A stretch of DNA of 64,000 bases from Rhodanobacteraceae bacterium. Its GTDB lineage: Bacteria > Pseudomonadota > Gammaproteobacteria > Xanthomonadales > Rhodanobacteraceae. The notes below the pieces were generated by a model, which saw only the letters and a program-made list of their open reading frames with translations, searched no databases and had not been told where the DNA came from. Position 1 is the stretch's first letter; the number at the start of each line of letters is the position of its first letter. The position numbers and the translations under genes were made by a program. The DNA lies in contig SCQU01000017.1 in assembly GCA_004299555.1 (NCBI GenBank), positions 1 to 64,000 of the forward strand. The letters run 5' to 3'. Below are positions 21,710 to 39,190 of this stretch, piece by piece.

Positions 21710-22459
21710 ATGAGCAGCAAGAAATTCCAAGGAAAGACCTGCGTCTACTGCGGCACGCCGGGGGCATCAGGCACCGCCGATCATGTCATCGCGCGTGAGT
21801 TTTTCCCCGAGGGGGCGAAGCGCGCGAATCTGCCCCAGGCGCCCGCATATCGCCAGTGCAACAATGAGAAGTCGAAGCTCGAGCACTATGCGGCGACGGT
21901 GCTGCCTTTCGGGGCGTCGCACACCGAGTCGCGCACGATCCTGTCGGACATAGTCCCTGGCCGTCTAGCGCACAACCGGAAGCTCGCCCGCGAACTCGCC
22001 GAGGGTTTGGCGGCGCATTTCGTCTCGCAGGACAACGGTCGCAGTTGGGATATTGAGATGACACTGCCGTTCGACGGTGTGAAAATCGCGCGCCTCTTCC
22101 AAATGATCGCCCGTGGCTTGGCTTACGTAGAGTTTGGCATCATGCTCCCCGACGCGGAATGCGTAGTTCATGCGGACTTCCTCACCGCTGATGGGCGCTC
22201 GTTCTTCGACCGCGTCTTCGAGGGGAAGGGCAACAAGACCGGCGAAAGGAATCTCGGAAACGGAATTTTTGTTTACGACGGCGTGCAAAGCCTCGAGTCG
22301 CCGCAGCTGACGCTGTTGCGGATGTCATTTGGTGCGATGCTGGGCGGTGATCCCAAGGCTCGGGGAGCGCGCGTCTCCGTGGTCTACGCGCTCACGGCTC
22401 CGCGGAAGATGTCTGCCGCGAGCAGACTGGTCGAATTTCTTCGCTCTCAGGGCGTCTAG
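21710..22459 (+). CDS. HNH endonuclease-like protein
   Basis: A 249-residue protein. The N-terminus holds a zinc and HNH core: CVYCG (Cys 11 and 14), GTADHVIARE (Asp-His 24-25), then YRQCNNEKSKLEHYAATVLPFG (Cys 50, Asn 51-52, His 59). Two cysteines at the front but only one before the Asn pair make it a variant of the usual four-Cys HNH. The remaining roughly 190 residues are unrecognised; they include IEMTLPFDGVKIARLFQMIARGLAYVEFG and may bind DNA or a partner. It lies 75 bases before the HsdR-N gene, same strand, and is probably a defence nuclease. Start is the ATG at 21710. Confidence 0.75.
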   Translation: MSSKKFQGKTCVYCGTPGASGTADHVIAREFFPEGAKRANLPQAPAYRQCNNEKSKLEHYAATVLPFGASHTESRTILSDIVPGRLAHNRKLARELAEGLAAHFVSQDNGRSWDIEMTLPFDGVKIARLFQMIARGLAYVEFGIMLPDAECVVHADFLTADGRSFFDRVFEGKGNKTGERNLGNGIFVYDGVQSLESPQLTLLRMSFGAMLGGDPKARGARVSVVYALTAPRKMSAASRLVEFLRSQGV

Positions 22460-22534: not shown

Positions 22535-24262
22535 ATGGCCATGGCCGACATTTACACACAGCCGCTCTCCTTCGAAAGACTGCAGCAGTTCAAGATGCTG
22601 GCTGCGCTCGGTGCGGATTCGGTCGCGATACTGGCTCGCATCGAGAGTCTAGATGTCGCGAATTTCAATGAGGCTGAAGTACGGGCCAACATCATCGATC
22701 CGATGGTCCACGTTCTCGGGTACGACAAGGGCACCGACTTCTCAGTCGATCTTGAGCGGTACCTGAAGGTTCTCGAGAAGGATCTGAAACCCGATTACAA
22801 ACTCAATTTATGGAAGGCCGATTTCTGGATCATTGAGGCAAAGAAACCGCGCTTCGGGAAAGCCGACTTCGCGTACAAGGATTTGTCCCAAGCACTTGAG
22901 TATGCCGCTCACCCGCAGATCAACGCCGCGCTCGTTGTGTTGTGCGACGGGATCAAGATCGAGGTATTCGATCGCGAGGTCGATCTGACGGGGCCGATAC
23001 TTCACATCGACCGCGAACACTTGCGACGCGATTTCGACAAGCTACGCCATCTTCTTGAGCCCTGGCAGGTGTGGTTCTTTCAGAAGCGGCGAATTCTGCG
23101 CTCGCTCGACAAGGTTTTCGACCGCGAATTCAACATGCAGCGCGTGGAAGAATTCAAGGCCCTGGTGGAAGCCAGGCTCAAGGGCAAGCGCCAAATCATC
23201 CTAGAGAACTTTCGGCGCAATATGAAGCCTGACACGGCGGAAGTAAGTGAGATGTTGCTCAGTGCACCGATGGAGGACCTGGTTGAGGTGCATCTCTTTC
23301 TCAATCACCCAGTCCCAGCGCTGAAAGCGATGACGACCGCCTTGGTCAAGCACAGCGAGGGCCGCAGCTTCAGGACGCTGTTCAGGATATTTCCCGATCA
23401 GCCGCGCGATGCCAATGACCTATTCTACGGGCAGGCTCTCAGGTATCTGTTCGATCTCGCTGAAACGCGTGAAACCGTTGAATGGTCTCCGGCATGGCTG
23501 ACGCCTGGCCAGCAGAGCAATGGTAAGGTCGAATTCATTGCGCAGCGTCTCCTGCGTTTATGCGTTACGCATTTCGCGGCGGATGAGGCGCGCAAGACCA
23601 TATTGTTAGCGGCGGCCGCGTTCCGGCGCGTGATCAAGGTTTTGCTGATGTCGAACGACGCGCAATGGCGACAGGCGCAAGTCCTCCACTTCCTCGATCG
23701 TTATCAGACGCCCGAGCTCGCCTGGAGACAAGCCGTGGCGTCGCCTGCGGGACAGATGTTAGGCATGCTGGAAAGCGGCACTCTTGGAGCTACCTATCGG
23801 TTCGTCGCCGCGTGCCGCGGCGAGCATGGCGAATTCAAGACTGAGAGCGCGAAGCTCCAATTGAAGGCCATTTGGCAGTTCGAAAGGGGCGTCCTGAGCG
23901 CCATCGACAACTACCCGAAGCTGCGCGAGGAGCGCGGCCTCGGCGAAATGCACCCGACCGAAAGTGTGTGTGTCAACTATGACTTTCTCGGGCACTTTGC
24001 GCTTTGCGTCGTCTCATCCATTCCGACGTGGAAGGAATACGTCCAGCAGAAGCACCAAGGTGAGCTCCGAACACTGGCCGCGCTCGGATCTTGGAGTGCT
24101 CGCGAATTGCTAGGCCTTGCGACAGCCGCGCCCTATCCGCCGCTGCACGACGAAGAGGTGGCAACCCGCTTCTTCTTTGGAGATATCGCCACGATGCGGG
24201 CACTCAGGAGCGGATACGCCGGCCGGCCCGCTGACGCTGGCGCAGTCGCAGATCCGACTTAG
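22535..24262 (+). CDS. Protein with type I restriction HsdR N-terminal-like nuclease domain
   Basis: A 575-residue protein. The first about 180 residues match the HSDR_N fold: EAEVRANIIDPMVHVLGYDKG, then ADFWIIEAKKP with Asp 96 and Glu 101-x-Lys 103 as the PD-(D/E)xK site, and QALEYA (Gln 119, Tyr 123) in the QxxxY position. Residues 190-575 have no helicase motifs, unlike true HsdR (about 1000 residues), and I do not recognise them. Thus a stand-alone nuclease with a new C-terminal part. An AGGA ribosome site precedes the start. It forms a likely two-gene unit with the HNH gene. Loss of a helicase part and function as a phage or plasmid cutter are inferences. Confidence 0.72.
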   Translation: MAMADIYTQPLSFERLQQFKMLAALGADSVAILARIESLDVANFNEAEVRANIIDPMVHVLGYDKGTDFSVDLERYLKVLEKDLKPDYKLNLWKADFWIIEAKKPRFGKADFAYKDLSQALEYAAHPQINAALVVLCDGIKIEVFDREVDLTGPILHIDREHLRRDFDKLRHLLEPWQVWFFQKRRILRSLDKVFDREFNMQRVEEFKALVEARLKGKRQIILENFRRNMKPDTAEVSEMLLSAPMEDLVEVHLFLNHPVPALKAMTTALVKHSEGRSFRTLFRIFPDQPRDANDLFYGQALRYLFDLAETRETVEWSPAWLTPGQQSNGKVEFIAQRLLRLCVTHFAADEARKTILLAAAAFRRVIKVLLMSNDAQWRQAQVLHFLDRYQTPELAWRQAVASPAGQMLGMLESGTLGATYRFVAACRGEHGEFKTESAKLQLKAIWQFERGVLSAIDNYPKLREERGLGEMHPTESVCVNYDFLGHFALCVVSSIPTWKEYVQQKHQGELRTLAALGSWSARELLGLATAAPYPPLHDEEVATRFFFGDIATMRALRSGYAGRPADAGAVADPT

Positions 24263-24463
24263 GCTGCCTCGGGCGAATGCCGCCATCGCATTCGGTATTC
24301 CTGCTACTCCACTGATTCGCTGCTAAGCAGCCGCTTGCCAGCGACCGCTTCGGGTCGTTTTCGCCACTTCGCCCCTTGCAAACTGATCATGTCGCCGCGC
24401 GGCCGATCATCTGGGATCGAGCGATCACCGTGTCCTCGGCTTTGCCGTACACGGTGCATGTTC

Positions 24464-25642
24464 TTAGGGCAACTGCATCTCGCGTCGCATGAACTCGTCG
24501 AACAGTGGCACGGTGAAGGCAACTTGGCCATGTTCCGGCGCGTAGATCATCCCCTTCTTGATCAGATTATCGCGCGTCGGCCCCAAGCTGCGGGCGTTGC
24601 GGTCCATTGCCTTGGCAACGTCGGATGATCGCTGCGGCCCTTCCCCGAGCTCGGCCAGGTAACGCATGTAGTCGCGTTCCAGCGGCGTCAGTCGATCGAA
24701 ACGCACCCGGAAGAAAGACTCGTCCAGTTTGCGAATCGACTGGTTGGTCGCAACTTTGGCGTCACGCTCGGTAATGACATCGCTGTTCGCGATATTCCAG
24801 GCGTTGTAACCCCACTCCTGCAGAAAATAGGGGTAGCCGCGGGTCTGCGCGAAGATTTCTTCAAGTGCGCCGTCGTCGATGCGCGCACGCTCGACTTCAA
24901 CCGGTTCGCGGATCGCTTTGTAGGCGTCTTCCTTTTCGAGTCGATCCAGCCGCGGGAAGTCGAACAACCGCTCTGCGTAACTCTTGGCGTCACCCGCCTG
25001 CCCCGCCAGCTGCGGCAACCCTGCCCCGAACAACAGCAACGGCAGGCCATCCTGATTGACCGCGTGCATGCCCCGAATCAACGCCGCAAGCTCTTCGCGT
25101 GAGACGTATTGCAATTCGTCTATCAGCAACACGACGGGTCGCTTTGCTTCTTTGGCCGCCTGCGCAGTTGCCACGAGCACGTCTTTGACGTCCGCTTCGA
25201 AATCACCGCTGTCGGCGTGACCCGGCTCGGGATCAACCCCCAACGTCACGTCTACGCCGCCAGTGCTGACCGTGACTCTGCCGATGAAGCTGCGCAGCAC
25301 GCGCAAGCCTTTTTTCACCGCCTCGATCGCGTGGCCGGGCCGGTCCAACTGCAGCAACACCCGGCGCAGCGCGTGAATCAGGAGCTGGCGCAGGTCTTCG
25401 CCGTCACGCGCTTCGATCTGTTCGACCAGATAGCCACGCGTATTGGCTTCCCTTCCGATCTCGTTCAACAAGACGGTCTTGCCCACGCCGCGCAGGCCCA
25501 AGATCATCAGCGACTTGGCGTGCCGGCCACGCTTGGTTCGCTCGAGCGCGGTCACCGCCTGCTCCAGCACCTCGGATCGGCCTGCCAGCTCGGGCGGGCT
25601 CACTCCCGCACCGGGGTTGAACGGGTTGCTGTAGGTGTCCAT
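24464..25642 (-). CDS. ORC/CDC6-like AAA ATPase, possible defence regulator or effector
   Basis: A 392-residue protein. It starts MDTYSNPFNPG, with PPELAGRSEVLEQ before Walker A GLRGVGKT (residues 49-56), Walker B VVLLIDELQY (170-179), and GYPYFLQEWGYNAW, an archaeal-ATPase marker. The C-terminus (PLERDYMRYLAELG, then SSDVAKAMDRNARSL and IYAPEHGQVAFTVPLFDEFM) reads as a winged helix. A longer frame to 25732 starts outside the family pattern. It is divergent from the SNF2 helicase operon with 125 bases between them, so they may share a promoter. A damaged copy of its 3' end lies at 21.3 kb. Confidence 0.85.
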   Translation of the reverse strand: MDTYSNPFNPGAGVSPPELAGRSEVLEQAVTALERTKRGRHAKSLMILGLRGVGKTVLLNEIGREANTRGYLVEQIEARDGEDLRQLLIHALRRVLLQLDRPGHAIEAVKKGLRVLRSFIGRVTVSTGGVDVTLGVDPEPGHADSGDFEADVKDVLVATAQAAKEAKRPVVLLIDELQYVSREELAALIRGMHAVNQDGLPLLLFGAGLPQLAGQAGDAKSYAERLFDFPRLDRLEKEDAYKAIREPVEVERARIDDGALEEIFAQTRGYPYFLQEWGYNAWNIANSDVITERDAKVATNQSIRKLDESFFRVRFDRLTPLERDYMRYLAELGEGPQRSSDVAKAMDRNARSLGPTRDNLIKKGMIYAPEHGQVAFTVPLFDEFMRREMQLP

Positions 25643-25767
25643 GCGCTTGTGGCGGCTAGGAATGTCTAGGCAAGTATAGCCAAAACTAGATAGACTTGAG
25701 TAGAAATAGCTATCAACCTGCCTCGGGAGCAACCTTCGCGGGGCCGGAGTCGCTCACGTTGAATAGC
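25643..25767. promoter_or_regulatory. Divergent control region between ATPase and helicase operon
   Basis: The 125 bases between the ATPase start (25642) and the chosen helicase start (25768) include a locally AT-rich part (near 25670-25715: AAGTATAGCC, AAAACTAGATAGAC, TAGAAATAGCTATC). No strong consensus -35/-10 pair can be fixed. This is the only place where promoters for both the ATPase and the six-gene operon can lie. Confidence 0.45.
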
Positions 25768-28653
25768 ATGGCCGCAAGCTCCATGGGGATCACTGATTAT
25801 TACGCCAAATACATCGCCCACGAGCTGACCCGCCGTTTTCCGCCCGACAGTGGCGAGAAGCTCGCCAGTGCGGTAGCGAGCGCGCAGGTGGACTTGAACC
25901 CGCATCAAGTGGACGCGGCGCTGTTCGCGTTTCAGTCGCCCCTTTCCAAGGGGGCGCTGCTCGCTGACGAGGTGGGGCTTGGCAAGACCATCGAGGCAGG
26001 CCTGGTGCTTTCGCAGAAATGGGCCGAGCGCAAGCGCCGCATCCTGGTCATCACGCCATCCAATCTGCGCAAGCAGTGGTTGCAGGAACTCACCGAAAAA
26101 TTCTTCCTGCCCTGCCGCATTCTGGAATCGAAGTCGTACAACGCGGCCAGCAAGCAGGGGCACCTCAGGCCGTTCGAGGGCAATGACATTGTCCTCTGCT
26201 CGTACCAGTTCGCGCGCAGCAAAGCGGGCGACGTGCAAGCCATTCCGTGGGATGTGGTGGTCATCGACGAAGCGCACCGCCTGCGCAATGTGTACAAGCC
26301 GTCCAACGTCATCGCCAACACCCTGAAGCAAGCGTTGGCTGGCCGGGACAAGGTGCTGCTCACCGCGACGCCGTTGCAGAATTCGTTGTTGGAATTATTC
26401 GGCCTAGTCAGCTTCATCGACGAGCATACCTTCGGCGATCTGCAGAGTTTTCGCGAACAATTCGCGCACCTAGAAGAAGGCCAAGCGTTCGCCACGCTGA
26501 AAACGCGTCTGAAACCAGTCTGCCATCGCACGCTGCGCCGGCAGGTAAATGCCTACGTTCCGTTTACCCGGCGCCTGCCGTTGGTCGAGGAATTCACGCC
26601 GGAGCAGGGCGAAGATCAACTTTACGAACAAGTTTCGGAGTACCTGCAACGCCCCAACCTGCAGGCCCTGCCATCAGGTCAGCGCGCCCTCATCACCCTG
26701 GTACTGCGCAAGTTGCTGGCGTCCTCCACCTTCGCCATCGCCGGCGCATTGACGTCGATGTCCGAGCGCCTCAAGGCCCGTCTGCGCCAGGACGAACAAG
26801 CTGCCGCCCTCGACGACGACTTGGGTCGCGATGACTTGAGCCGGGACTACGAGACCCTGGACGAGACCGCCGATGAATGGTCGGAGGAAGCGCAAGCCGA
26901 GCCCCTCAGCGAAGCCGATCGCCACGCCATCCAGCAGGAAATCGCCCATCTCGACAGCTTCGTCGAGCTTGCCACTTCCATTGACCACAACGCCAAGGGC
27001 ACGGCGTTGCTCAAGGCTTTGCAGGTGGCATTCGGCAAGCTGCGGGAATTGGGTGCCGAACAGAAGGCCATCATCTTCACCGAATCCCGGCGCACGCAGA
27101 ACTATCTGCTCCGCTTACTGGCCGATAGCCCGTGGGCCGAGGGCATCGTGCTGTTCAACGGCACCAACACCGACGAACGTTCCCGGCAGATCTACAAGGA
27201 GTGGCTCGAACGTCATCGCGGCACGGATCGCGTCACTGGCTCGCGCACCGCCGACATGCGCTCGGCGCTGGTGGATTATTTCCGCGAGCAAGGACGCATC
27301 ATGATCGCCACGGAAGCGGGCGCCGAGGGCATCAACCTGCAATTCTGCTCGCTGGTGGTCAACTACGACCTGCCATGGAATCCGCAGCGGATCGAGCAAC
27401 GCATTGGCCGTTGCCACCGCTACGGCCAGAAACACGATGTCGTCGTGGTGAACTTCCTCAACCGGAAAAACGCCGCCGACCTGCGCGTGTTCGAACTGCT
27501 CGACCAGAAGTTCCACCTGTTCGAAGGCGTATTCGGCGCCAGCGATGAAGTGCTTGGCGCAATCGAATCAGGCGTCGACTTCGAAAAGCGCATCGCGGCC
27601 ATCTATCAGGCCTGCCGCAGGCCCGATGAAATCAAGACCGCGTTCGACCAGTTGCAGCTGGAACTGAGTCTGGAGATCGACCAGTCGATGGCGCGCACGC
27701 GGCAAAAGCTGCTGGAGAATTTCGACGACGAGGTGCGCGAGAAGCTCCGCGTCCGCGATGAGGACTCCCGAAAAGCCTTGAATCGCTACGATGAGTGGCT
27801 GATGCAGCTCACCCGGCACGTGTTGGGCGACTGCGCCGAGTTCAACGGCGACGGAGAGTTCGAGTTGAAGGCACGGCCCGACTGGGCCAGCGCAACGGGT
27901 GTTCCGCTTGGCCGCTACGAGCTGCCACGGCGCACCGGCGATGCCCACCTCTACCGGCTGAATCATCCGCTTGCCGAGGCCCTGCTCGCCCATGTCGAGT
28001 CACGCGAGTTGCCGACGGCGGAAATTCGTTTCGACCTTGGCCAGCACCAAGGCCGTATCAGCGCGCTTGAATCCCACACAGGCGAACGCGGGACGCTGGC
28101 AGCGTGGCGTTTCAGCGTGGAATCGCTGGACGCCGCCGAGGATCACCTGATCGTCGTCGCCATGACCGACAGCGGCGAAGCGCTGGACGATGATGCGGCC
28201 CGTCGGCTGCTCACATTGCCCGGTGAATTGATCCAACAAGGCATCTCGCTGGATGAGACGCGCCTGAGTGAAATTGCGGTGGAGCGGCAGGCTGCCATCC
28301 AGCGGGACGTTTCCACGCGCAACGCGCGTTTCTTCGAAGCCGAGGCCGAAAAGCTGGATGGCTGGGCGGACGATCTGAAAGTGGGCCTGGAGCGCGAGAT
28401 CAAGGAACTAGACCGGCAGATCAAGGAAGCACGGCGCGCGGCGACGGCGACCCTGACGCTGGAAGACAAGCTGGCCGCCCAGCGGCAGATCAAGGCGTTG
28501 GAAGCGCAGCGCAACCAGAAACGGCGGTCGTTGTTCGAGGCGCAGGACCGGATCGACGCGCAACGTGACGCGATGATCGGTAACATCGAAGGTAGGATGC
28601 AGCAAGTGGTGAAGTCAGAGCGGTTGTTCAGCTTGGCATGGGAAATCGCATGA
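25768..28653 (+). CDS. SNF2/RapA-like DEAH helicase, first gene of six-gene operon
   Basis: A 961-residue SNF2-family ATPase. Markers: NPHQVDAALFAF (Q motif), ADEVGLGKT (Walker A, about residues 66-74), VVIDEAH (Walker B), LLTATPLQNSLLELF, and in the second lobe NYDLPWNPQRIEQRIGRCHRYGQ. The last about 250 residues are charged, with strong coiled-coil repeats. The family N-terminus is MGITDYYAKYIAHEL, so the ATG at 25768 (MAASSM) is preferred; a TTG at 25696 would add 24 residues, with weak ribosome sites in both cases. It resembles stand-alone SNF2 helicases of defence islands such as DrmD, but none of the DISARM partner genes is here. It ends nine bases before the next gene. Confidence 0.9.
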   Translation: MAASSMGITDYYAKYIAHELTRRFPPDSGEKLASAVASAQVDLNPHQVDAALFAFQSPLSKGALLADEVGLGKTIEAGLVLSQKWAERKRRILVITPSNLRKQWLQELTEKFFLPCRILESKSYNAASKQGHLRPFEGNDIVLCSYQFARSKAGDVQAIPWDVVVIDEAHRLRNVYKPSNVIANTLKQALAGRDKVLLTATPLQNSLLELFGLVSFIDEHTFGDLQSFREQFAHLEEGQAFATLKTRLKPVCHRTLRRQVNAYVPFTRRLPLVEEFTPEQGEDQLYEQVSEYLQRPNLQALPSGQRALITLVLRKLLASSTFAIAGALTSMSERLKARLRQDEQAAALDDDLGRDDLSRDYETLDETADEWSEEAQAEPLSEADRHAIQQEIAHLDSFVELATSIDHNAKGTALLKALQVAFGKLRELGAEQKAIIFTESRRTQNYLLRLLADSPWAEGIVLFNGTNTDERSRQIYKEWLERHRGTDRVTGSRTADMRSALVDYFREQGRIMIATEAGAEGINLQFCSLVVNYDLPWNPQRIEQRIGRCHRYGQKHDVVVVNFLNRKNAADLRVFELLDQKFHLFEGVFGASDEVLGAIESGVDFEKRIAAIYQACRRPDEIKTAFDQLQLELSLEIDQSMARTRQKLLENFDDEVREKLRVRDEDSRKALNRYDEWLMQLTRHVLGDCAEFNGDGEFELKARPDWASATGVPLGRYELPRRTGDAHLYRLNHPLAEALLAHVESRELPTAEIRFDLGQHQGRISALESHTGERGTLAAWRFSVESLDAAEDHLIVVAMTDSGEALDDDAARRLLTLPGELIQQGISLDETRLSEIAVERQAAIQRDVSTRNARFFEAEAEKLDGWADDLKVGLEREIKELDRQIKEARRAATATLTLEDKLAAQRQIKALEAQRNQKRRSLFEAQDRIDAQRDAMIGNIEGRMQQVVKSERLFSLAWEIA

Positions 28654-28662
28654 GGTGTCGTC

Positions 28663-29670
28663 ATGGCTAACGGAAGACTGCTCAGGCAGTTGATCAAATC
28701 GGGCGCCGAGGGTGATCAGGACGCCTTTCGTCGTGCATCCGAAGCCGTGATTTCGGAGGAAAGGGAAAAGCAACACCACCTCCTTGCCAACGATCTCGAG
28801 AAGATTCTCTACGGGAGAAGCAAGATGCCGGCGAGCCTGTCCATAGTGAAAGCTGCCCACGCGGTTCCCATTGATCGCGAGCGCGACCTGAACTTGATCG
28901 AAGTTCTACAGCCGACACGGGATCTGGGCGACATTGTGTTGTCCGATAAAACGCGGTCCGCACTGGACGAGGTGCTCATGGAGCACAACCGTGCGGATGT
29001 GTTGCGAGCGCACGGTCTCGAACCTGCCCAGAAACTGTTGTTCTTTGGCCCCCCAGGGTGCGGCAAAACGCTTGCGGCCGAGATCCTGGCAACGGAACTC
29101 TCGCTACCATTGGCGTTGATTCGGCTCGATTCGGTGGTTTCCTCATTCTTGGGCGAGACGGCAGCAAACCTGCGTAAGGTCTTCGATTTCGTATCCGAAA
29201 CACCCGTTATTGCATTGTTCGACGAATTTGACGCTCTCGCCAAGAGCCGCGATGACGTTGCGGACCATGGCGAACTGAAGCGTGTAGTCAATGCCGTACT
29301 GCAAATGATGGACAGCTATCGCGGTCGCAGCGTACTGGTTGCAGCAACCAACCACGAAACTCTCCTCGATCCGGCAATATGGCGGCGCTTTGATGAAGTC
29401 ATTCAGTTCGAGCGACCGAGCCTCGAGCAAATCAAGCAATTGCTCGCGATGAAGCTCGCAGGGGTTCGACGTCAGTTTGATCCTTCAGAAAGCCATATCG
29501 CCAACATGTTCAAGGGCATGGCACACGCCGACGTCGAGCGCGTATTACGCCGGGCTGTGAAGGAGATGGTGCTGCAAGGCCGGGAGTTTCTTGATCTACC
29601 GCATCTGGAAGAAGCTTTGTCGCGCGAATACACGCCGAAGAGGAACAGGAAAGCAACCAGGGGGACATGA
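28663..29670 (+). CDS. AAA+ ATPase, IetA-like
   Basis: A 335-residue single-domain AAA+ protein. Helical N-terminus to about residue 85, then GDIVLSDKTRSALDEVL, Walker A FGPPGCGKT (128-136), Walker B IALFDEFDAL, sensor 1 VLVAATNHE and the arginine motif IWRRFDEV. It overlaps the subtilisin-like gene by four bases. An AAA+ ATPase tightly coupled to an S8 protease is the composition of IetAS, first described as a stability and exclusion locus on an Agrobacterium Ti plasmid and later as an anti-phage pair. I infer the same kind of action: the ATPase senses or remodels, the protease executes. Confidence 0.88.
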   Translation: MANGRLLRQLIKSGAEGDQDAFRRASEAVISEEREKQHHLLANDLEKILYGRSKMPASLSIVKAAHAVPIDRERDLNLIEVLQPTRDLGDIVLSDKTRSALDEVLMEHNRADVLRAHGLEPAQKLLFFGPPGCGKTLAAEILATELSLPLALIRLDSVVSSFLGETAANLRKVFDFVSETPVIALFDEFDALAKSRDDVADHGELKRVVNAVLQMMDSYRGRSVLVAATNHETLLDPAIWRRFDEVIQFERPSLEQIKQLLAMKLAGVRRQFDPSESHIANMFKGMAHADVERVLRRAVKEMVLQGREFLDLPHLEEALSREYTPKRNRKATRGT

Positions 29671-32000
29671 TGCCTCATCAGCACTTACGGATCGCCCGCG
29701 AAGAACCCAGCAACGAACGCAAGCCAAGGAAACCTCAGCCGAAACACGCGCCCGCTGATCCACGGGGCCTCGGCGCGCGCCTCAAGCAATCGTTGGAGCG
29801 CGCGCTTGACACAGACACAGCCACACGTGGTTACGACGACCGCCGCCTTATCAAGCTGAAGGTCGAGGCCGGGTTTCGCCCAGATGATCTGGCCAAAATC
29901 CCCGGAATCGAAGTCGTCAGCCAGGAAGGCAAATCCATCGTTCTCGCCTTCGCCGATGCCAAAGCCCTTGAAACATTCGAACAACGGTTGACCCGGCTCG
30001 TAAGGGATGGAACCACCACAAGAAAGGAAATCTTCTTTGCCTTGCAGGCGTTCGAGAACTGGACGCCGGCCGATCGTACCGGGCAGGCGCTTGCGCAATT
30101 CGACGCTCCCGACGCGGGAATGTTTGTCGTGGACGTCGAACTATGGCCGCTGGCAAAACCAGCCGAACGCCAGGCATTGCGTGCTGGTTTTGAAGGCGAT
30201 CTGCGACAACAACATATCGAATATCTGGACTTTCTCGACAAGCCCAGTCTGCTGATGTACCGCGTGCGAACCGGCAAGCGCGGCTTGGGTAGGCTCTTGT
30301 CGCATCGCGATGTCCGACTGGTGGACCTTCCTCCTCGGTATGGGCTGGAGACGGAACTTCTGGTGCTCGATATCAATGAGCTCCCCCCGGTGACTGCACC
30401 TGGCATCAACGCGGCCGTAGTCGGCGTGCTGGATACCGGCCTAGCCAGTGCGCACCCGATCTTGGGTGCGGCCGTTGGCGAAACGGCCGGATTCATCCCA
30501 CCTGACAGGAACGGAAATGACGACAACGGGCACGGGACGCGGGTTGCCGGCCTATCACTTTACGGCGACGTCCGTGCATGCCTCCAGCAGAAACGCTTCG
30601 TTCCGGAGCTCAAACTATTGAGCGGCCGGGTATTCGGTAACGGCGGCACTGACGCAACACGTTTCGTCGAAAAGAACGTGGAAGATGCCGTGCGGTATTT
30701 CCACGGTGAATATGACTGCCGCGTGTTCTGCCTCAGCTATGGGGATACCAACAAGGTCTACGATGGCAGGCATGTTCGTGGACTTGCGTACACGCTGGAC
30801 AGCTTGTCCCGCGAGTTGGGCGTCCTGTTCGTTGTACCAACTGGGAACCTCCGCGCTGAGGAGCTACCGGACGACCCACATACCCACTATCCGGAGTACC
30901 TTCTCGACGAATTAGCGCGAGTGCTTGATCCGGGTACCGCGCTGAACGCGCTCACCGTGGGCGGCCTGTCGATATTCGATGCCGATGTCAATGCGCAGCG
31001 CTACCCGAACCATCTCGAAGGCGCCCCGATCGCGCGTGTCGGCCAGCCGTCGCCATTTACCCGGACCGGACCATCCGTCAACCAGGCCATCAAACCGGAC
31101 TTGGTTGCAAACGCCGGCAACTGGGTGGTTCGCCGCGCTGGGGGACTCGAACATCGCCGGCTCGGGGTACTTTCATCAAGCAAGGAGTTCGCGAGCGGAC
31201 GGCCCTTCAATGAAGATGTCGGCACCAGCTATGCGGCACCGCAAATCGCACACGCGGCTGCGCGCTTGCTGAACCACCTGCCAGCCGCAAGTGCCAATCT
31301 GTTGCGGGCCATGCTGGCTGCTCACGCGCGCTGGCCGGAACCCGCCGTCGAATTGTGCAAAGGCGCGAAGGGCAAACCGGATGTAGCAACACTGACCCGG
31401 CTCATCGGTTACGGTCAGATTCGGGCGGACGCCTTGTTTGAATCGCTGGACAATGCGGTGACGTTGTATGCCGAGGACGCGCTGCCAAACGACCACCACC
31501 ACTTCTACGAAATGCCCCTGCCGGACGATCTGTGGACACCCGGTGGGCGCGAGCGACTGATCAGTGTGGCCTTGGCGCATAACCCCGACGTTCGAACCAC
31601 TCGAATTGACTATCGTGCGACGCAGATGTCGTTTCGCCTTGTGCACGCTGCGAGCCTCGCCGAAGTCGGTTCGTGGTACCGCAAAGTGCGTGCGGACGAG
31701 GCGGAGGAAATACAGGAATACACGAACGGGCGCGCCATCACGGCTCAGATGAGGGGACGCGGAACGTTGCAGTGTGCCGCGTGGCGGTTCCCCACGTCTC
31801 GACGCGCAGACTTCAAGTTGTTCCTGGTGGTAACCCGCCACGACGCCAACTGGTCGGACGTCAAGGCAACAGCCGAGCCATATGCGCTGGCCATCACCAT
31901 CCAGGACCGCGAGAACGCAACCGGGCAACTGTACGCGCAGATTCGCCAGCGGTTACAGCTCCGCGAGCAGATACGCCTGCGTGTCCGGGCTGGGCGTTGA
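29667..32000 (+). CDS. Subtilisin-like S8 serine protease, IetS-like
   Basis: A 777-residue cytoplasmic-looking protease (no signal peptide). The catalytic triad is intact: Asp 256 (VVGVLDTGLA), His 289 (DDNGHGTRVAG) and Ser 522 (VGTSYAAPQIAHAAA), with oxyanion Asn 395 (VPTGNL). The first 240 residues are an extra domain including a GIEVVSQEGKSIVLAFAD-type fold that may be an inhibitor or partner contact; about 230 residues follow the catalytic part. The length fits IetS-type proteases. It is coupled by ATGA overlap to the AAA ATPase gene and ends five bases before the methyltransferase gene, so it is in one transcript with R-M genes. Confidence 0.9.
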   Translation: MMPHQHLRIAREEPSNERKPRKPQPKHAPADPRGLGARLKQSLERALDTDTATRGYDDRRLIKLKVEAGFRPDDLAKIPGIEVVSQEGKSIVLAFADAKALETFEQRLTRLVRDGTTTRKEIFFALQAFENWTPADRTGQALAQFDAPDAGMFVVDVELWPLAKPAERQALRAGFEGDLRQQHIEYLDFLDKPSLLMYRVRTGKRGLGRLLSHRDVRLVDLPPRYGLETELLVLDINELPPVTAPGINAAVVGVLDTGLASAHPILGAAVGETAGFIPPDRNGNDDNGHGTRVAGLSLYGDVRACLQQKRFVPELKLLSGRVFGNGGTDATRFVEKNVEDAVRYFHGEYDCRVFCLSYGDTNKVYDGRHVRGLAYTLDSLSRELGVLFVVPTGNLRAEELPDDPHTHYPEYLLDELARVLDPGTALNALTVGGLSIFDADVNAQRYPNHLEGAPIARVGQPSPFTRTGPSVNQAIKPDLVANAGNWVVRRAGGLEHRRLGVLSSSKEFASGRPFNEDVGTSYAAPQIAHAAARLLNHLPAASANLLRAMLAAHARWPEPAVELCKGAKGKPDVATLTRLIGYGQIRADALFESLDNAVTLYAEDALPNDHHHFYEMPLPDDLWTPGGRERLISVALAHNPDVRTTRIDYRATQMSFRLVHAASLAEVGSWYRKVRADEAEEIQEYTNGRAITAQMRGRGTLQCAAWRFPTSRRADFKLFLVVTRHDANWSDVKATAEPYALAITIQDRENATGQLYAQIRQRLQLREQIRLRVRAGR

Positions 32001-32005
32001 AGCAC

Positions 32006-33724
32006 ATGACGAAAAGGCAAAAGCTGGAACTGACGTGGATCGGGAAGGAAAACCGGCCGAAGCTGGAGCCGCGGATTCTGCTGGAGGACCCGTCGATGTC
32101 GTATCACGCGGCGCAGCGGGTGACGGACGGCGACATCTTCGACAGCCGGCTGATCTTCGGGGACAACCTGCTGGCGCTGAAGGCGCTGGAGCAGGAGTTC
32201 GCGGGTAAGGTGAAGTGCGTCTACATCGATCCGCCTTTCAATACCCAGCAAGCACTTGAACACTATGATGACGGAATTGAGCATTCGCTGTGGCTGTCCC
32301 TGATGCGGGATCGCCTGGAGCTGATCCGCAGCCTGCTGGACAAATCGGGCACCTTGTTCGTTCACATCGATGACAACGAGATCGCCTATCTCTCTGTCCT
32401 TCTCGACGAAGTCTTCGGAAGGGCGAACAAACTCTATGTGGTGACGTTCAAGCAAGGCTCGGCGACTGGCCACAAGTCCATCAACCCCGGATGTGTGAGC
32501 ACGACAAATTTCATCCTCCTGTACGCGAAGGACAAATCGTCGTGGGTTCCCAACAAGGTTTACACCGCAAGGGGGAGAGACCCGCGCTACGGACAATTCA
32601 TTCCGAATAGGCACGAACGCCACAAGAACTGGACCTTCGACACGCTGGCGAACGCGTTTGCAGCATCGTTGAACCTTTCCGTGGAAGATTCGCGGAAGGC
32701 CGATCGGTATCAGAAAAAGTTGGACCAGTTTGTCATCGACCATGCCTCAGAGGTCGTCCGGCTTGCGCGTCCTAGTTACAACGACGTGGGCGCCGCTGCG
32801 CGGAAAATGATCGACATCTCCAAACGATTTCCCGCACGCGTGCTTCGATTGACCAGGAAGGGTTACTCGGACATGTATTTCCTCGGCGGCCAACGCATCC
32901 TGTTCTACGCGGACAAAGTAAAAGTCATTGACGGAGTGGCGACCACTGCTGAGCCCCTAACCACGCTCTGGGATGACATCCTCTCGAACAACCTCCACAA
33001 AGAGGGCGGAGTCAAGTTCCCCAAGGGAAAGAAACCCGAGGCGCTGATCAAGAGAGTGCTCGAGCTCTGCACGAACCCGGGCGACTTGGTTCTCGACTCC
33101 TTTGCCGGCTCCGGCACCACGGGTGCGGTGGCGCAGAAGATGGGCCGCCGCTGGCTCATGGTGGAGCTAGGCGATCAATGCCATACACACGTCATTCCGC
33201 GCCTGAAAAGTGTCATCAATGGCGAGGATTCGAGCGGTGCCACCAAAGCCATGGATTGGAAGGGCGGCGGTGGGTTTCGTTATTACCGCTTGGCGCCGTC
33301 CCTGCTGGAAAAGGATCATTGGGGCAACTGGGTCATCAACCGCGAGTACAACGCAGGCATGCTGGCCGAAGCCTTGTGCAAGCTGGAAGGCTTCACCTAC
33401 GCGCCGTCGGATTCGGTGTACTGGCAGCACGGCCATTCGACCGAGCGCGACTTCCTGTACGTCACCACCGCCAGCCTCACGCATGAGCAGTTGCAGCAGT
33501 TGAACGACGAGGTGGGGCCGGAACGCTCTTTGCTGGTGCTGTGCACGGCCTTTCGCGCGCGCGCCAATGCGTATAAAAACCTTACCGTGCGCAAGATTCC
33601 CAAGCAGGTGTTGTCGCACTGTGAATGGGGCCACGACGATTACAGCCTGCAGGTGGAGAACCTGCCGCAGGCGCCGCGCGAACCGGATCAACAGGGTTTG
33701 TTCGAGGACGGGGGTGCGCCATGA
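32006..33724 (+). CDS. Type III R-M adenine methyltransferase (Mod), beta class
   Basis: A 572-residue DNA methyltransferase. The catalytic motif VYIDPPFNTQQALEHYDDG (DPPF at 75-78) comes before the SAM-binding motif DLVLDSFAGSGTTGA, as in beta-class N6-adenine enzymes. Between them (about residues 140-330) lies the target-recognition domain. The N-terminus (LTWIGKENRPKLEPRIL) is typical of Mod proteins. I use the ATG at 32006, five bases after the protease stop; the open frame from 31673 is not conserved in type. It overlaps the RhuM gene by four bases. Marks host DNA and directs the Res subunit. Confidence 0.92.
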   Translation: MTKRQKLELTWIGKENRPKLEPRILLEDPSMSYHAAQRVTDGDIFDSRLIFGDNLLALKALEQEFAGKVKCVYIDPPFNTQQALEHYDDGIEHSLWLSLMRDRLELIRSLLDKSGTLFVHIDDNEIAYLSVLLDEVFGRANKLYVVTFKQGSATGHKSINPGCVSTTNFILLYAKDKSSWVPNKVYTARGRDPRYGQFIPNRHERHKNWTFDTLANAFAASLNLSVEDSRKADRYQKKLDQFVIDHASEVVRLARPSYNDVGAAARKMIDISKRFPARVLRLTRKGYSDMYFLGGQRILFYADKVKVIDGVATTAEPLTTLWDDILSNNLHKEGGVKFPKGKKPEALIKRVLELCTNPGDLVLDSFAGSGTTGAVAQKMGRRWLMVELGDQCHTHVIPRLKSVINGEDSSGATKAMDWKGGGGFRYYRLAPSLLEKDHWGNWVINREYNAGMLAEALCKLEGFTYAPSDSVYWQHGHSTERDFLYVTTASLTHEQLQQLNDEVGPERSLLVLCTAFRARANAYKNLTVRKIPKQVLSHCEWGHDDYSLQVENLPQAPREPDQQGLFEDGGAP

Positions 33725-34791
33725 CGGCGAACGAACCCGTCAAGTCTGCATCGGAACTCATTCTGTATCGCACCGAGGATGCGCGCACGCGTATCGAGGT
33801 ACGACTGGAAGGCGGCACGGTGTGGCTGACGCAGGCACAGATGGCGGAGCTTTTCCAGACCACCCCACAGAACATCACAACCCACCTTCGCAGGATCTAC
33901 GCGGACGCGGAACTCCAGCCCGATGCAACCTGTAAGGATTACTTACAGGTTCGCCCGGAGGGTGGGCGCAGCGTCGAGCGGCGGCTGAAGCACTACAACC
34001 TCGATGCCGTCCTCGCGGTGGGTTACCGCGTGCGCAGTGCGCGCGGCACGCAGTTCCGCCAGTGGGCCACGCAGCGCTTGCACGAATATCTGGTCAAGGG
34101 TTTTGCGCTGGACGATGAGCGCCTGAAACGCGGAGCGGACGACGGTTACTTCGAGGAATTGCTCGCGCGGATCCGTGACATCCGCTCCTCGGAACGGGTG
34201 TTCTGGCGCAAGGTGCTCGATATCTACGCCACCAGCGTCGATTACGACACGCGCGCGGAGGCCAGCCAACGCTTCTTCCGGATCGTGCAAAACAAGATGC
34301 ACTGGGCAGCGCATGGGCACACCGCCGCCGAGGTGATCCGGGCACGCGCGGATGCGGGCAAGCCCAACATGGGGCTGACCAATTGGAGCGCGACACGGCC
34401 GCGCCGGCAAGACGTGACGGTTGCCAAGAACTATCTGGATGCGGGTGAACTGGAAACGCTGAACCGGATCGTCACCGCGTACCTGGAATTCGCGGAGCTG
34501 CAGGCGCTCAATCGGCGCCCCATGGCGATGGCGAACTGGATCGCGAAGCTGGATGAGTTTCTGCGGCTGGGTGAACGCGGCATCCTGACGCACGCGGGCA
34601 GCGTCAGCCACGAGACAGCCGTCGCCCATGCGCAAGCCGCATTTGATGCGTTCCATCGCGAACAGCTGGCACAGGCCGCCGCGTTGGAACACGAACTGGA
34701 AACCACGGCGAACCAGCTCAAGCGGATTGCCGCGGGCAAGCGCAAGCCGGCCGCGAAGGCGCCGCGCGGAAAACCCAAGGGGAAACCATGA
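33721..34791 (+). CDS. RhuM family protein
   Basis: A 356-residue protein. The first half matches RhuM: ILYRTEDARTRIEVRLEGGTVWLTQAQMAELFQTT (a winged-helix-like DNA-binding start), NITTHLRRIYADAEL, NLDAVLAVGYRVRSARGTQFRQWAT (as in KilA/Bro-type proteins). The second half has FFRIVQNKMHWAAHGHTAAEVI and a Lys/Ala-rich tail. RhuM was named as a Salmonella virulence-region gene and often lies inside type I or III R-M loci; its function is not known. It overlaps both Mod and Res by four bases, so its stoichiometry is linked with theirs. Confidence 0.9.
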   Translation: MTANEPVKSASELILYRTEDARTRIEVRLEGGTVWLTQAQMAELFQTTPQNITTHLRRIYADAELQPDATCKDYLQVRPEGGRSVERRLKHYNLDAVLAVGYRVRSARGTQFRQWATQRLHEYLVKGFALDDERLKRGADDGYFEELLARIRDIRSSERVFWRKVLDIYATSVDYDTRAEASQRFFRIVQNKMHWAAHGHTAAEVIRARADAGKPNMGLTNWSATRPRRQDVTVAKNYLDAGELETLNRIVTAYLEFAELQALNRRPMAMANWIAKLDEFLRLGERGILTHAGSVSHETAVAHAQAAFDAFHREQLAQAAALEHELETTANQLKRIAAGKRKPAAKAPRGKPKGKP

Positions 34792-37478
34792 ACCGCCACG
34801 TCAACGCGATCGCCGGCCGCCTGAGCCTGCGCGCGCCGCAGCGGGAATCGCTGGAAATCCTGGATCGGGTTACCGAGATTGCGCCGCCGCGCAAGGATGC
34901 GGATGTAACGGCGGCGCTGGCGACGATCCACGGTGAATTTCCATCGGTGACGGATTTTGAGCGTGACTTCACCTCGCTGTGCTTCGCGCTGGCGACGGGT
35001 GTCGGCAAGACGCGACTGATGGGCGCATTCGTCACCTATCTGCATCTGGCGCACGGCATCAACAACTTCTTCGTGCTGGCGCCGAACCTGACCATCTACA
35101 ACAAGCTGATCGCCGACTTCACGCCCAACACGCCGAAATACGTGTTCAAGGGCATCGCCGAGTTCGCGGTCAGCGCCCCTGCAATCGTCACGGGCGACAA
35201 CTACGACCAGCGTGATCCGGCCAGCGGCGCGTTGTTCGGCGGCGTGCGTATCAACATTTTCAACATCTCCAAGATCAACTCGGAGGTTCGTGGCGGCAAG
35301 GCGCCGCGGATCAAGCGGCTATCTGAATACATTGGCGAGAGCTACTTCGATTACCTCGCCGGCCTGCCGGACCTCGTGCTGCTGATGGACGAATCGCACC
35401 GCTACCGCGCCAGCGCGGGTGTGCGCGCGATCAACGAGCTGAAGCCGATCCTGGGGCTGGAACTGACCGCCACGCCGTTCGCGGAGTCCAGCCATGGGCC
35501 GGTGCCGTTCAAGAACGTGATCTATGACTATCCGCTGGCACGGGCGATGGCGGACGGATTCGTCAAGGAACCGGCAGTGGTCACGCGCAAGGATTTCGAC
35601 CCGCGCGGCATGTCGGCGCCGGAAATCGAACGACTGAAGCTGGAAGATGGCGTCCGCCTGCACGAGAGCGTGAAGGTCGATCTGGAAACCTACGCGCGCG
35701 AAACCGACAACCGTATCGTAAAGCCCTTTCTGCTGGTGATCGCGCGGGATACCACCCATGCCGGCGAGTTGTTGGCGTTGATCCAGTCGGGCGCCTTTTT
35801 CGAGGGTCGGTACAAGGACAAGGTCATCCAGGTGGATTCCAGCCAGACCGGCGCCAAGGAAGAGGAAATGATCGAACGGCTGCTGAAGGTCGAGCAGCCT
35901 GACGAGCCGACCGAGATCGTCATCCACGTGAACATGCTGAAGGAAGGCTGGGACGTGACGAACCTGTACACGATCGTCCCGCTACGGGCCGCGAATGCGC
36001 GCACCCTGATCGAGCAGTCCATCGGGCGCGGCCTGCGCCTGCCTTACGGGAAGCGCACCGGCGTCAGCGCGGTGGATCGGCTCAACATCGTCGCGCATGA
36101 CAAGTTCCAGGAGATTGTCGAGGCTGCCAAGCGGCCGGATTCGCCGATCCGGATGCAGGCCATCGTGCTCGACCCCGCGCAGTTCCGTGAGAAGACCGAA
36201 ACCGTGGTATCGCAGTCGACGCTGTCCGGCAAGCTCGGATTCAAGCCGGCAGCGATGACGGGAAGGACCGCGCTCGCCGGCCGCAACGAGACGCCGGCGT
36301 TTACGAAGCCCGAAGAGCAGAAAGTCGCGCAGATGGCTTACGAGGCAATCCGGACGCTTGAGAATCAGCCAGGCGAGGTGCCTTCCGTTGCCGCGCTGCG
36401 GAAACCGGAGGTGCTGGCGACCATCACGCGAAAAGTCCAGGCCGGATATACGCCTGCGCAGGGTGAGTTGGAGGGCATGGCCGAGATGCCTGACATTGCC
36501 GAGGTCGTGGCAAAAACGGTGGATCTGGTCGCGCAGCAGACCATCGACATTCCACGCATTCTGGTGGTACCCAAGGGCGAGGTGACGTGCGGGTTCCGAT
36601 CGTTCCGGCTCGAACTGGGCGCGCTCAAGTACCCGGCGGTATCCGACGAACTGTGGTTGCAGCATCTGCGCACGGAAAAGAACGAAGTGGTGGCATTGGC
36701 CCAAGGTGGCGTTCGTGAAGAGCGGCCGGAGGACTATGTGGTCAGTGGTTTGGTGGACTTTGACGACGTTTCCTACGATGACCAGGCCGACCTGCTGTAC
36801 GACCTAGCCGGGCAAGTGGTGCAACACTTCCAAGGCTATCTCTCCGAGGAGGACGCGGAGAAGGTGCTGCGCTGTTACCAGAAGCCGCTCGCGCAATTCG
36901 TGCATGCGCAGATGCAACAGCATTACTTCGAAGATGCGTCGGAGTACGAGGTCAAGGTCAGCAAGGGCTTCACCGAGTTGAAGCCGAGTGCCTACACACA
37001 AGGCGTCAACGAAGAGCCCGCCGATTATCGCGTCGCGCCCGATGACAGAAGCAACATGGCGCGTTACTTGTTTGGTGGCTTCAAGCGTTGCCTGTATCCG
37101 GTGCAGAAGTTCGATTCGGATGCAGAGCGCAAGTTGGCGATCATCCTGGAGCGTGACGCGATCAAGTGGTTCAAACCGGCGCGCGGGCAGTTCCAGTTGT
37201 ACTACCGCGTGGAAGGCAACGACCCGCAGGAATACCAGCCCGATTTCGTTGCCGAAACCGACGATGCGATCTACATGCTGGAGCCCAAAGCTCGCAATCA
37301 GATGGGTGCGCCGGACGTGCTGGCCAAGCAGGAAGTGGCCGTGAAGTGGTGTGCGCATGCGTCGGATTACACGCAGCAGATTGGTGGCAAGCCTTGGCGA
37401 TATGTGCTGATTCCGCATGACGTCATATCCGAGAATATGACACTTGAGGGATTGGCGAAGCAGTTCGGCACACGTTGA
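34788..37478 (+). CDS. Type III restriction endonuclease Res subunit
   Basis: A 896-residue translocase and nuclease. Helicase motifs: Walker A ALATGVGKTRL (about 68-78), VLLMDESHRYRA (DESH 201-204), LGLELTATPF, and later NMLKEGWDVTNLYTIVPLRAANARTLIEQSIGRGLRLP. The C-terminal nuclease shows PDFVAETDDAIYMLEPKA: Asp 819 and Glu 832-x-Lys 834. All of these are intact, so it looks active. It is the last gene of the six-gene operon and begins inside the RhuM stop by ATGA. It would cut unmodified DNA when bound with Mod. Confidence 0.93.
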   Translation: MNRHVNAIAGRLSLRAPQRESLEILDRVTEIAPPRKDADVTAALATIHGEFPSVTDFERDFTSLCFALATGVGKTRLMGAFVTYLHLAHGINNFFVLAPNLTIYNKLIADFTPNTPKYVFKGIAEFAVSAPAIVTGDNYDQRDPASGALFGGVRINIFNISKINSEVRGGKAPRIKRLSEYIGESYFDYLAGLPDLVLLMDESHRYRASAGVRAINELKPILGLELTATPFAESSHGPVPFKNVIYDYPLARAMADGFVKEPAVVTRKDFDPRGMSAPEIERLKLEDGVRLHESVKVDLETYARETDNRIVKPFLLVIARDTTHAGELLALIQSGAFFEGRYKDKVIQVDSSQTGAKEEEMIERLLKVEQPDEPTEIVIHVNMLKEGWDVTNLYTIVPLRAANARTLIEQSIGRGLRLPYGKRTGVSAVDRLNIVAHDKFQEIVEAAKRPDSPIRMQAIVLDPAQFREKTETVVSQSTLSGKLGFKPAAMTGRTALAGRNETPAFTKPEEQKVAQMAYEAIRTLENQPGEVPSVAALRKPEVLATITRKVQAGYTPAQGELEGMAEMPDIAEVVAKTVDLVAQQTIDIPRILVVPKGEVTCGFRSFRLELGALKYPAVSDELWLQHLRTEKNEVVALAQGGVREERPEDYVVSGLVDFDDVSYDDQADLLYDLAGQVVQHFQGYLSEEDAEKVLRCYQKPLAQFVHAQMQQHYFEDASEYEVKVSKGFTELKPSAYTQGVNEEPADYRVAPDDRSNMARYLFGGFKRCLYPVQKFDSDAERKLAIILERDAIKWFKPARGQFQLYYRVEGNDPQEYQPDFVAETDDAIYMLEPKARNQMGAPDVLAKQEVAVKWCAHASDYTQQIGGKPWRYVLIPHDVISENMTLEGLAKQFGTR

Positions 37479-37490
37479 CCTCGTGGAACC

Positions 37491-37513
37491 GCGGGGGCTA
37501 TATCAGCCCCCGC
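37491..37513. terminator. Hairpin spanning the end of the first radC-like gene
   Basis: A nine-base-pair stem (GCGGGGGCT with AGCCCCCGC) and a five-base loop (ATATC). The stop codon of the leftward radC-like gene lies inside it. It also follows the Res gene of the rightward operon by 12 bases, so it may stop both transcripts. No U-run follows on either side. An identical hairpin is present at 38530-38552. Confidence 0.6.
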
Positions 37514-37980
37514 GCCGCCATCGACGTGACCTGCTCGCCAACGACAAGGTGGTCGAGTACCCGCGTTCCGATCAGCGCCAGCGCATCGCGGAGCTGATGG
37601 GTGATGTTGCGGTCGGCGGCGCTGGGTTCCGCGACCCCACTCGGGTGATTGTGGGCGAAGATGACCGCCGCCGCGTTGTGCTTGAGGCACGCGCGCACGA
37701 CTTCGCGCGGATGGACGCTCGCGCCATCGATGGTGCCCTGAAACATTTCCTCGGCCGCGATGACGCGGTGCCGGTTGTCCAGAAACAGCACCAGAAAAGC
37801 TTCGGCCTGCCGGGTGGCGAGCCGCGCCTGGCAATAGGCGGCGGTATCCCGTGGGCTGGTGAGTGACGGGCCGTGTTGCAGCGTTTCGGCCAGCATGTCC
37901 TGCACCACCGCCAGCAGCTCTTGAGGTTGCACCGCGCCGGTGAAGTGGTAGGCGCCCTGCGCATCACGTTCGTATTGCAT
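37498..37980 (-). CDS. RadC-like JAB/MPN-domain protein (short copy 1)
   Basis: A 160-residue protein. The JAMM metal motif is present: [18 protein letters not shown] (His-x-His and the distal Asp), with [24 protein letters not shown] short N-terminal part ([15 protein letters not shown]) replaces the helix-hairpin-helix of full RadC (about 220 residues). The ATG at 37980 has a clear AGGAGA ribosome site. RadC-type JAB proteins of this length are common on integrative elements and plasmids; their role is not settled. It is a paralogue of the next gene and lies convergent to the R-M operon. Confidence 0.88.
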
Positions 37981-38529
37981 TGGTCTTCTCCTGAACCGGC
38001 CCACCGTGGGCCGTCGGGGCGACCACAGCGCCGCGAACGGCGCAGCCCGCACCCGCAGGGGCGCAACAACGTGGAGCACGCCTTTGGCGTTGCGGGCGAG
38101 CAAGCGGCGCTAGGATTCGCCCGTTTCAGGACCACAGACGGGCATGGGAAGACCTTGGGATACGTGATGTGCACGCCGATTCCCGCGCGCTGACCTCTAT
38201 TGCGCTGGCGGCGGACCTTGTGGCCGAAACGCGTCAACACGAACGTACGCCGGGATCGCGCGAACGCATTGCGACGGATCGCCAACCGGCAGGTCGTGGC
38301 TGCGACGATGATGCAAGCCGATTTCTGGAATTGACACGGTGCCGAACGGCTGCCCAAGCTGCGTGATCCATCAAACCTTCGAATTCACGTCGCGATCGGC
38401 CAACGCCGCGGCACTGCGGACCGAGTCGCCGATGCGCGACATTCAGCAGGCGCTGCCGATCTCGTGTTTGTGCCGACGTAATGCTGCGCAGAGAGAAGCG
38501 AGTCCATCGGCTGACGCGGACGTGAAACA
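37981..38529. other. Intergenic region between the two radC-like genes
   Basis: About 550 bases upstream of the first radC-like gene, before the end of the second. Open frames on both strands are short or lack any family pattern. It may hold the promoter of the first copy. I see no gene in it. Confidence 0.5.
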
Positions 38530-38552
38530 GCGGGGGCTATATCAGCCCCCGC
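38530..38552. repeat. Second copy of the radC-end hairpin
   Basis: Same nine-base-pair stem and ATATC loop as at 37491-37513, again over the stop codon of a radC-like gene. Conservation goes with the conserved gene end (GLI-stop), so it may be only coding conservation, but the perfect pairing would work as a terminator or RNA-end protector. Confidence 0.5.
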
Positions 38553-39190
38553 GCCGCCATGGATGTGGGTTCTCCCGAACCGATCACGAGGTGATCGAGC
38601 ACGCGGACCCCGATCAGTTGCAGCGCGTCGCGCAGTTGGTGGGTGATGTTGCGGTCGGCCGCCGAGGGTTCTGCCACACCGCTCGGGTGATTGTGGGCAA
38701 AGATGCAAGCCGCCGCGTTGTGCTCAAGCGCTGCCCGCACCACCTCGCGGGGGTGCACTGACGCGCCATCCAGCGTGCCGCGGAACATCTCCTCGAACGC
38801 CAGCACCCGATGCCGGTTGTCCAGAAACAGGACGGCAAAGACTTCGTAGGGTCGGTCGGTCATGCGAGCTTTCAGGAATGCTGCGCTGTCGCGCGGGCTC
38901 GTCAACGCCGGGCGCGCCGCAAGTTCTTCAAACGCGCAGCGCTTGGCCAGTTCCACCGCCGCCGCCAGCCGTGCTCGCTTCGCTGTCGTGAGTCCTGCAC
39001 CCTGGTTGATGGCCGCCCGGATGCTGCCTGCCTTCGCGACTGCTGCCCTGATTGCGTCCATTGCGGCATCGTTGGTGGTGCCCGCTGCCACGGCGATCAG
39101 TTCCACCGCGGTCAAGCCTTCCGCCCCCAATGCGAGCACACGTTGTGCCAGTGTCATCGTGCCGCCATCCCGTACCATCGTGTTCAACAT
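38537..39190 (-). CDS. RadC family protein (copy 2, near full length)
   Basis: A 217-residue protein. The N-terminal about 95 residues contain the RadC lead region (LTAVELIAVAAG), and the C-terminal JAB domain has [31 protein letters not shown] and DHLVIGSG. Metal-binding residues are intact. The ribosome site GGAG lies before the ATG at 39190. The two radC-like genes match closely in their last 60 codons (only a few changes), which points to duplication. Confidence 0.9.
   Translation of the reverse strand: MLNTMVRDGGTMTLAQRVLALGAEGLTAVELIAVAAGTTNDAAMDAIRAAVAKAGSIRAAINQGAGLTTAKRARLAAAVELAKRCAFEELAARPALTSPRDSAAFLKARMTDRPYEVFAVLFLDNRHRVLAFEEMFRGTLDGASVHPREVVRAALEHNAAACIFAHNHPSGVAEPSAADRNITHQLRDALQLIGVRVLDHLVIGSGEPTSMAARGLI

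Follow-up and report, generated by a model that had tools for sequence, protein, structure and literature searches.

An IetAS ATPase–protease pair as exchangeable cargo of a DrmD-linked type III restriction-modification operon in a Rhodanobacteraceae bacterium

We analyzed a 64,000-nt stretch of DNA (positions 1-64,000, forward strand, of contig SCQU01000017.1, assembly GCA_004299555.1, Rhodanobacteraceae bacterium), hereafter the window. It carries six adjacent genes in the order drmD-like helicase, ietA, ietS, mod, rhuM, res:

25768..28653, + strand: DrmD-like SNF2/RapA helicase, gene 1 (PADLOC PDLC02619, 1.6e-207; NCBIfam DISARM_DrmD_b, 697 bits)
28663..29670, + strand: ietA, AAA+ ATPase of CDC48/p97 type, predicted antitoxin or restrainer (PADLOC IetA PDLC02196, 9.4e-107)
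29667..32000, + strand: ietS, S8 (subtilisin-like) serine protease, predicted toxin (PADLOC IetS PDLC02198, 5.5e-273; Pfam S8, 3.6e-36)
32006..33724, + strand: mod, type III DNA adenine methyltransferase (PADLOC MTase_III, 5.7e-195; Pfam N6_N4_Mtase, 2.8e-38)
33721..34791, + strand: rhuM, RhuM family, second-slot cargo (Pfam Virulence_RhuM, 9.4e-112; PADLOC PDC-S05)
34788..37478, + strand: res, type III restriction subunit (PADLOC REase_III, 1.7e-212; Pfam ResIII, 4.6e-20)

Because all six genes lie on the plus strand with tight junctions (+9, -4, +5, -4 and -4 nt, taking the corrected helicase start of 25768), the region 25768-37478 is probably a single transcription unit. The helicase open reading frame as called starts at 25696, but its homology begins only at about residue 30, which places the drmD start at ATG 25768 or 25783. 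The mod gene starts at ATG 32006 or at TTG 31997, the latter overlapping ietS.

By profile matches, mod encodes an N6-adenine methyltransferase and res, in the same operon, a DEAD helicase-nuclease, which is the gene content of a type III restriction-modification (R-M) system, as we predict the two to be. The helicase links the operon to DISARM through its likeness to DrmD. Unlike DISARM, however, the locus has no drmA, drmB or drmC beside drmD, its methylase and nuclease are of type III, and the helicase scores below the NCBIfam cut-off of 950 bits for DISARM_DrmD_b. One MZB-domain protein is encoded elsewhere in the genome, on contig C2. There is also a likeness to MADS, in that NCBI gives the label MAD1 to a small HTH gene preceding the drmD homologue of E. 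coli, but those operons carry no further annotated MADS gene. Such a MAD1-like HTH gene is found upstream of drmD in E. coli, Rhizobium and Cupriavidus; none was found upstream of drmD in the window.

The original prediction described the two genes downstream of the helicase as an IetAS-like pair, an identity borne out by the PADLOC matches listed above and by intact active-site motifs. IetA (335 aa) carries Walker A GPPGCGKT, Walker B ALFDEFDAL and an RRFD motif, and its nearest solved sequences are p97/VCP (p97/CDC48 AAA modules). In IetS (777 aa), D256, H289 and S521, together with the oxyanion residue N394, are invariant across 55 family members, giving a full catalytic triad. The NCBIfam IteA and IteS models also match (1.5e-79 and 1.2e-31), under their equivalog cut-offs. 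On this profile and motif evidence the pair is a genuine IetAS. The predicted same-strand ATGA overlap between the two reading frames (28663-29670 and 29667-32000) is present as described, but it is not the arrangement to be expected of IetAS in general, since plasmid relatives have ietA and ietS about 7-25 nt apart.

An AlphaFold model of IetS built with 36 sequences (pLDDT 86.8, pTM 0.87) has two alpha/beta plaits in residues 1-225, a loose linker at 225-231, the catalytic subtilisin domain at about 248-592 and a beta-rich C-terminal domain at 597-750. KP-43 superposes on the model with Z 29.7 and an rmsd of 2.7 over 373 residues, in an alignment that runs through the C-terminal beta domain to residue 745. 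Modelled alone, the N-terminal domain reached a pLDDT of 89.6, and a Foldseek search with this domain alone returned nothing under E 0.001. Its second plait (about 150-225; residues 152-228 in the match) matches the Tk-subtilisin propeptide (2z56) with Z 7.9 and an rmsd of 1.9 over 65 of 65 residues, but ribosomal S6 and other unrelated plaits match equally well. Since the resemblance is to a fold common to many ferredoxin-like proteins, the modelled N-terminal region may be an inhibitory intracellular prodomain; a secretion prodomain is unlikely. The original prediction was to fall if the 240-residue N-terminal domain were a secretion prodomain; the domain is not clearly distinct from a prodomain, residues of about 150-225 being folded like a subtilisin propeptide.

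Judged by eye, the IetS N-terminus (MMPHQHLRIAREEPSNERKPRK...) is hydrophilic and shows no evident signal peptide, so that the enzyme is probably cytoplasmic, as had been proposed. A family-wide motif, YxHLxxxRE..(R/K)R, occupies the extreme N-terminus. Residues 1-10 are confidently placed only when IetS is modelled at full length (a block mean of 90, versus 64 in the N-terminal domain alone), which suggests that this tail packs against the catalytic or C-terminal part.

That free S8 protease activity would be toxic inside the cell agrees with experiments on relatives. SGI1 encodes SgiT (S025), whose toxicity to E. coli shows within 30 minutes and is prevented by SgiA (PMC5006074); T133 of Mycoplasma mycoides is likewise toxic, with its AAA-ATPase partner as the antitoxin (PMC8562856). 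The window pair shares with the known cases (IetAS of pTiC58, SgiAT of SGI1, TA132/133 of mycoplasma) the order of an AAA+ ATPase followed by an S8 protease with an intact triad. It differs in its surroundings: the known pairs have not been described inside R-M operons, whereas this one lies between the helicase and mod of a type III operon, bracketed as originally noted by R-M and helicase genes, with the DrmD-like helicase 5' and mod, rhuM and res 3' of it.

We searched for relatives of the pair in the same genome, in the order and beyond. Of the three S8 genes in the genome, one is the ietS of the window, another encodes a second IetS and lies on contig C7, and the third, on contig C17, has surroundings that showed no similarity to our R-M or IetAS queries. 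Across 299 genomes of the order, a close IetS was found in one, the window's own. That IetS is a housekeeping or secreted subtilase whose neighbour is accidental could be argued from the propeptide-like part of the N-terminal domain, but we regard this as barely credible given the IetS-family scores, the presence of an ietA partner in nearly all relatives, the lack of a signal-like N-terminus and the finding of no more than distant IetS matches, in 3 of the remaining 298 genomes. We rejected a housekeeping protease on tree position as well as on the scattered and plasmid-borne distribution: rather than clustering with stand-alone housekeeping proteases, the outcome that was to count against the original prediction, IetS groups with ietA-partnered IetS proteins.

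The IetAS pair is scattered across phyla and occurs on plasmids, a distribution that fits a mobile module. Most relatives stand alone, for example on plasmids of Pseudomonas type and of Nitrosospira, Vibrio and Bradyrhizobium. Some adjoin other large DNA-processing systems, being placed behind a large DUF4011-like helicase or within a DISARM-like cluster (neighbours named by eye). In Luteimonas mephitis (L055 3360-12325), ietAS directly follows recC-recB-recD, as if guarding RecBCD, again with neighbours named by eye.

The full drmD-ietA-ietS-mod-res arrangement, with or without cargo in a second slot, was found in the window and in L053 (with its near copy L052), L272 and L279, and ietA-ietS-mod-res without drmD in L059, L274 and L286; in L054 the contig is cut at ietA. 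Contig C7 of this genome holds another operon (L026 5828-19222), which comprises a PLD-type helicase, ietA, ietS, a DUF4391-like gene, mod, rhuM and res. Only ietAS and rhuM are clearly similar between this operon and that of the window, the helicase, mod and res being distant. A contig classed as viral in IMG/VR (L129) carries an operon of PLD-helicase, ietAS, mod, rhuM and res, with a DUF4391-like gene before ietA, a sign of carriage by mobile elements.

To survey what occupies the position of ietAS, we started from res rather than ietS, which removes the bias of a search seeded with the cargo itself, and collected Res relatives (phylum, class) together with DrmD relatives on plasmids. Some cargo families were assigned by profile search and others from record annotation or from reading of the sequence. 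Slot 1 lies between drmD and mod, and slot 2 between mod and res. Slot 1 holds AIPR/AbiU (L209, L214, L219, L221, L222, L231, L271), AbiD/Abi_2 (L208, L230-L233), DSR2 (L217; 1185 aa, PADLOC 1.5e-143), Schlafen/AlbA_2 (L227, L228, L284; the L227 slot open reading frame is 90.7% identical to the L228 Schlafen protein by tblastn), HEC-01 made up of AAA_21 + DUF4276 (L273, and L236 by annotation), an AAA_13 protein (L275), or SIR2 with HerA (L269). DinD-like genes take the slot 1 position in L213 and L223, where drmD was not seen, and the slot is empty in L224, L225, L226, L265, L266, L285 and others. Elsewhere in the window's genome, a search for AAA_13 proteins (PrrC/RloC type) gave no match. 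Slot 2 contains RhuM, DUF1016/YhcG, Fic, zeta toxin, a VapC-like protein, PD-(D/E)XK, DUF262, or nothing.

Judged by this recurrence of the slot and the exchange of its contents, both seen in sequence comparison, IetAS is an exchangeable cargo of slot 1. The pair is indeed embedded in an R-M operon, as predicted, but not as a fixed part of it, since it is one of many such cargoes. These same operons weigh against the idea that DrmD, IetA and IetS are integral to one restriction machine, with IetS processing Mod/Res or a phage protein. The tightness of the operon and the recurrence of the pair in another, distant operon within this genome would agree with such a machine, but the close backbones of L271 and L273 lack IetAS and the six operons named above have an empty slot, and we consider an integral role very improbable.

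Exchange is most directly visible among close relatives. E. coli LS45 and CUPF09 are 99% identical in drmD and 98% in res at the DNA level, and LS45 and a Salmonella plasmid are 97% identical in drmD/res. Although these E. coli and Salmonella backbones are 97-99% alike, in slot 1 the likeness is reduced to an Abi gene that is 66% related, with the AIPR gene missing. The target-recognition region of mod has also been replaced among the E. coli/Salmonella operons (L230-L233, L208). The AIPR gene of 2014C-3011 carries an internal deletion of 1.2 kb. Relative to the window, L272 has 77% identity in Res and 73% in DrmD but only 46% in IetS, and L286 has 49% in Res and 51% in IetS; L271 and L273, with 77% in Res and 71-75% in DrmD, have no IetAS.

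We counted changes of slot content on a Res tree with 44 rows. Of these, 33 bear a slot label, among them the near copies L208, L222 and L231; slots that fall at contig ends received none. A minimum of 16 changes in slot 1 content is required on this tree. For the IetAS label the minimum is 6 (5 being forced by branches with good support), against a shuffled mean of 7.3, and the label is therefore hardly clustered. The IetS tree likewise calls for no fewer than 6 changes in residence in an R-M operon; here the count was taken over all rows, since the two R-M groups on this tree are too few for a shuffling test.

Since the slot holds other abortive-infection modules or nothing in related operons, the operon resembles a defence system whose self-destruct component can be exchanged. 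We give an even chance to a reading in which the IetAS toxin-antitoxin module serves as suicide cargo of the DrmD-type III R-M operon, in the manner of PrrC in EcoprrI. Mod and Res, with the DrmD helicase, would form the first line by cutting unmodified DNA, while IetA, co-translated with IetS, would hold the S8 protease in check, perhaps through an action on the plait and tail region of its N-terminus, which is in part propeptide-like. Release of IetS would follow if restriction were blocked or overwhelmed by a phage, or if IetA disappeared or ran short of ATP, and the freed protease would then cleave cell proteins, stopping growth before phage is made. This suicide-cargo reading is favoured by the presence of AIPR/AbiU, AbiD, DSR2, HEC-01, AlbA_2 and SIR2 with HerA in the same slot elsewhere and by the second operon of the same layout on contig C7. 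Against it stand the three ietAS-mod-res operons without drmD and the commonness of the propeptide-like fold among ferredoxin-like proteins.

The precedent is itself partial. The gene of PrrC, a suicide effector that is released when Stp blocks EcoprrI (PMC12707154), lies within an R-M operon, and so does the predicted effector gene of the window. EcoprrI, however, is of type I and PrrC is a tRNA nuclease, whereas the window system is of type III and its effector would be a protease with its own antitoxin, its guarding role drawn from the analogy.

The same gene arrangement could arise from stacking, in which IetAS is a self-sufficient anti-phage system that has promoter and transfer unit in common with the R-M genes but no cross-talk with them. 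IetAS is catalogued as a stand-alone defence system in PADLOC and NCBIfam and is counted among phage defence systems with a mechanism that is not known (PMC11878078), and the slot contents are mostly systems catalogued as working alone. The insertion between helicase and mod, the overlapping frames and the repeated use of the slot suggest more than chance linkage, although co-expression or co-transfer could explain these as well; overall we think independent stacking somewhat unlikely. Less probable still, in our view, is a selfish addiction module that stabilizes the R-M locus or island, with no role in phage defence and no sensing of the restriction state. The pTiC58 relative has been described as a plasmid stability toxin-antitoxin system, SgiAT promotes SGI1 maintenance (PMC5006074), and many plasmids carry stand-alone IetAS; because the pair mostly occurs alone on plasmids as a stability module, its residence in an R-M operon could reflect addiction rather than guarding. 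The other occupants of the slot (DSR2, AIPR, AbiD, HEC-01, Schlafen), however, are mostly abortive-infection modules and not classical addiction pairs. Addiction, stacking and guarding cannot be separated by sequence alone.

The suicide-cargo reading can be extended to the backbone as a whole. DrmD-Mod-Res may be a general sensor platform that restrains or releases whichever toxin module occupies slot 1 (protease, NADase, RNase or ATPase-nuclease), with failure of type III restriction as the single trigger and IetAS as the protease version; we hold this broader proposal to be rather doubtful.

The swapping of toxins in R-M loci has already been proposed: Makarova et al. 2012 described type I and III R-M loci holding toxin genes that displace each other, with AIPR linked to type III (PMC3506569). 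Immunity loci were noted there as being without antitoxins, unlike the window, whose slot holds a full toxin-antitoxin pair, and the words protease and subtilisin are absent from that paper. In the open-access literature searched, we found no description of IetAS with DrmD, RhuM or a type III R-M operon, nor of a protease toxin-antitoxin pair as R-M cargo, a DrmD-linked two-slot backbone, or two such operons in one genome. The operon offers a concrete, testable case for the long-standing idea that restriction is coupled to cell suicide, and a setting for finding what triggers IetAS. Since the same backbone carries different suicide modules even in E. coli strains whose backbones are 98-99% identical, swap experiments are feasible.

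Repeated sequences were noticed on both sides of the operon. Upstream, a minus-strand AAA_16 ATPase gene (24464-25732) has its 3' end (24454-24637) repeated 3.2 kb upstream at 21237-21419 with 85-89% identity, which is probably an insertion or duplication scar. Between the two copies lie an HNH-like open reading frame (21710-22459) and one of 575 aa (22535-24262) with a type IIG/restriction-like N-terminus. Just past res, two tandem radC-like genes on the minus strand (37498-38103 and 38537-39190) share 76% DNA identity across 261 nt.
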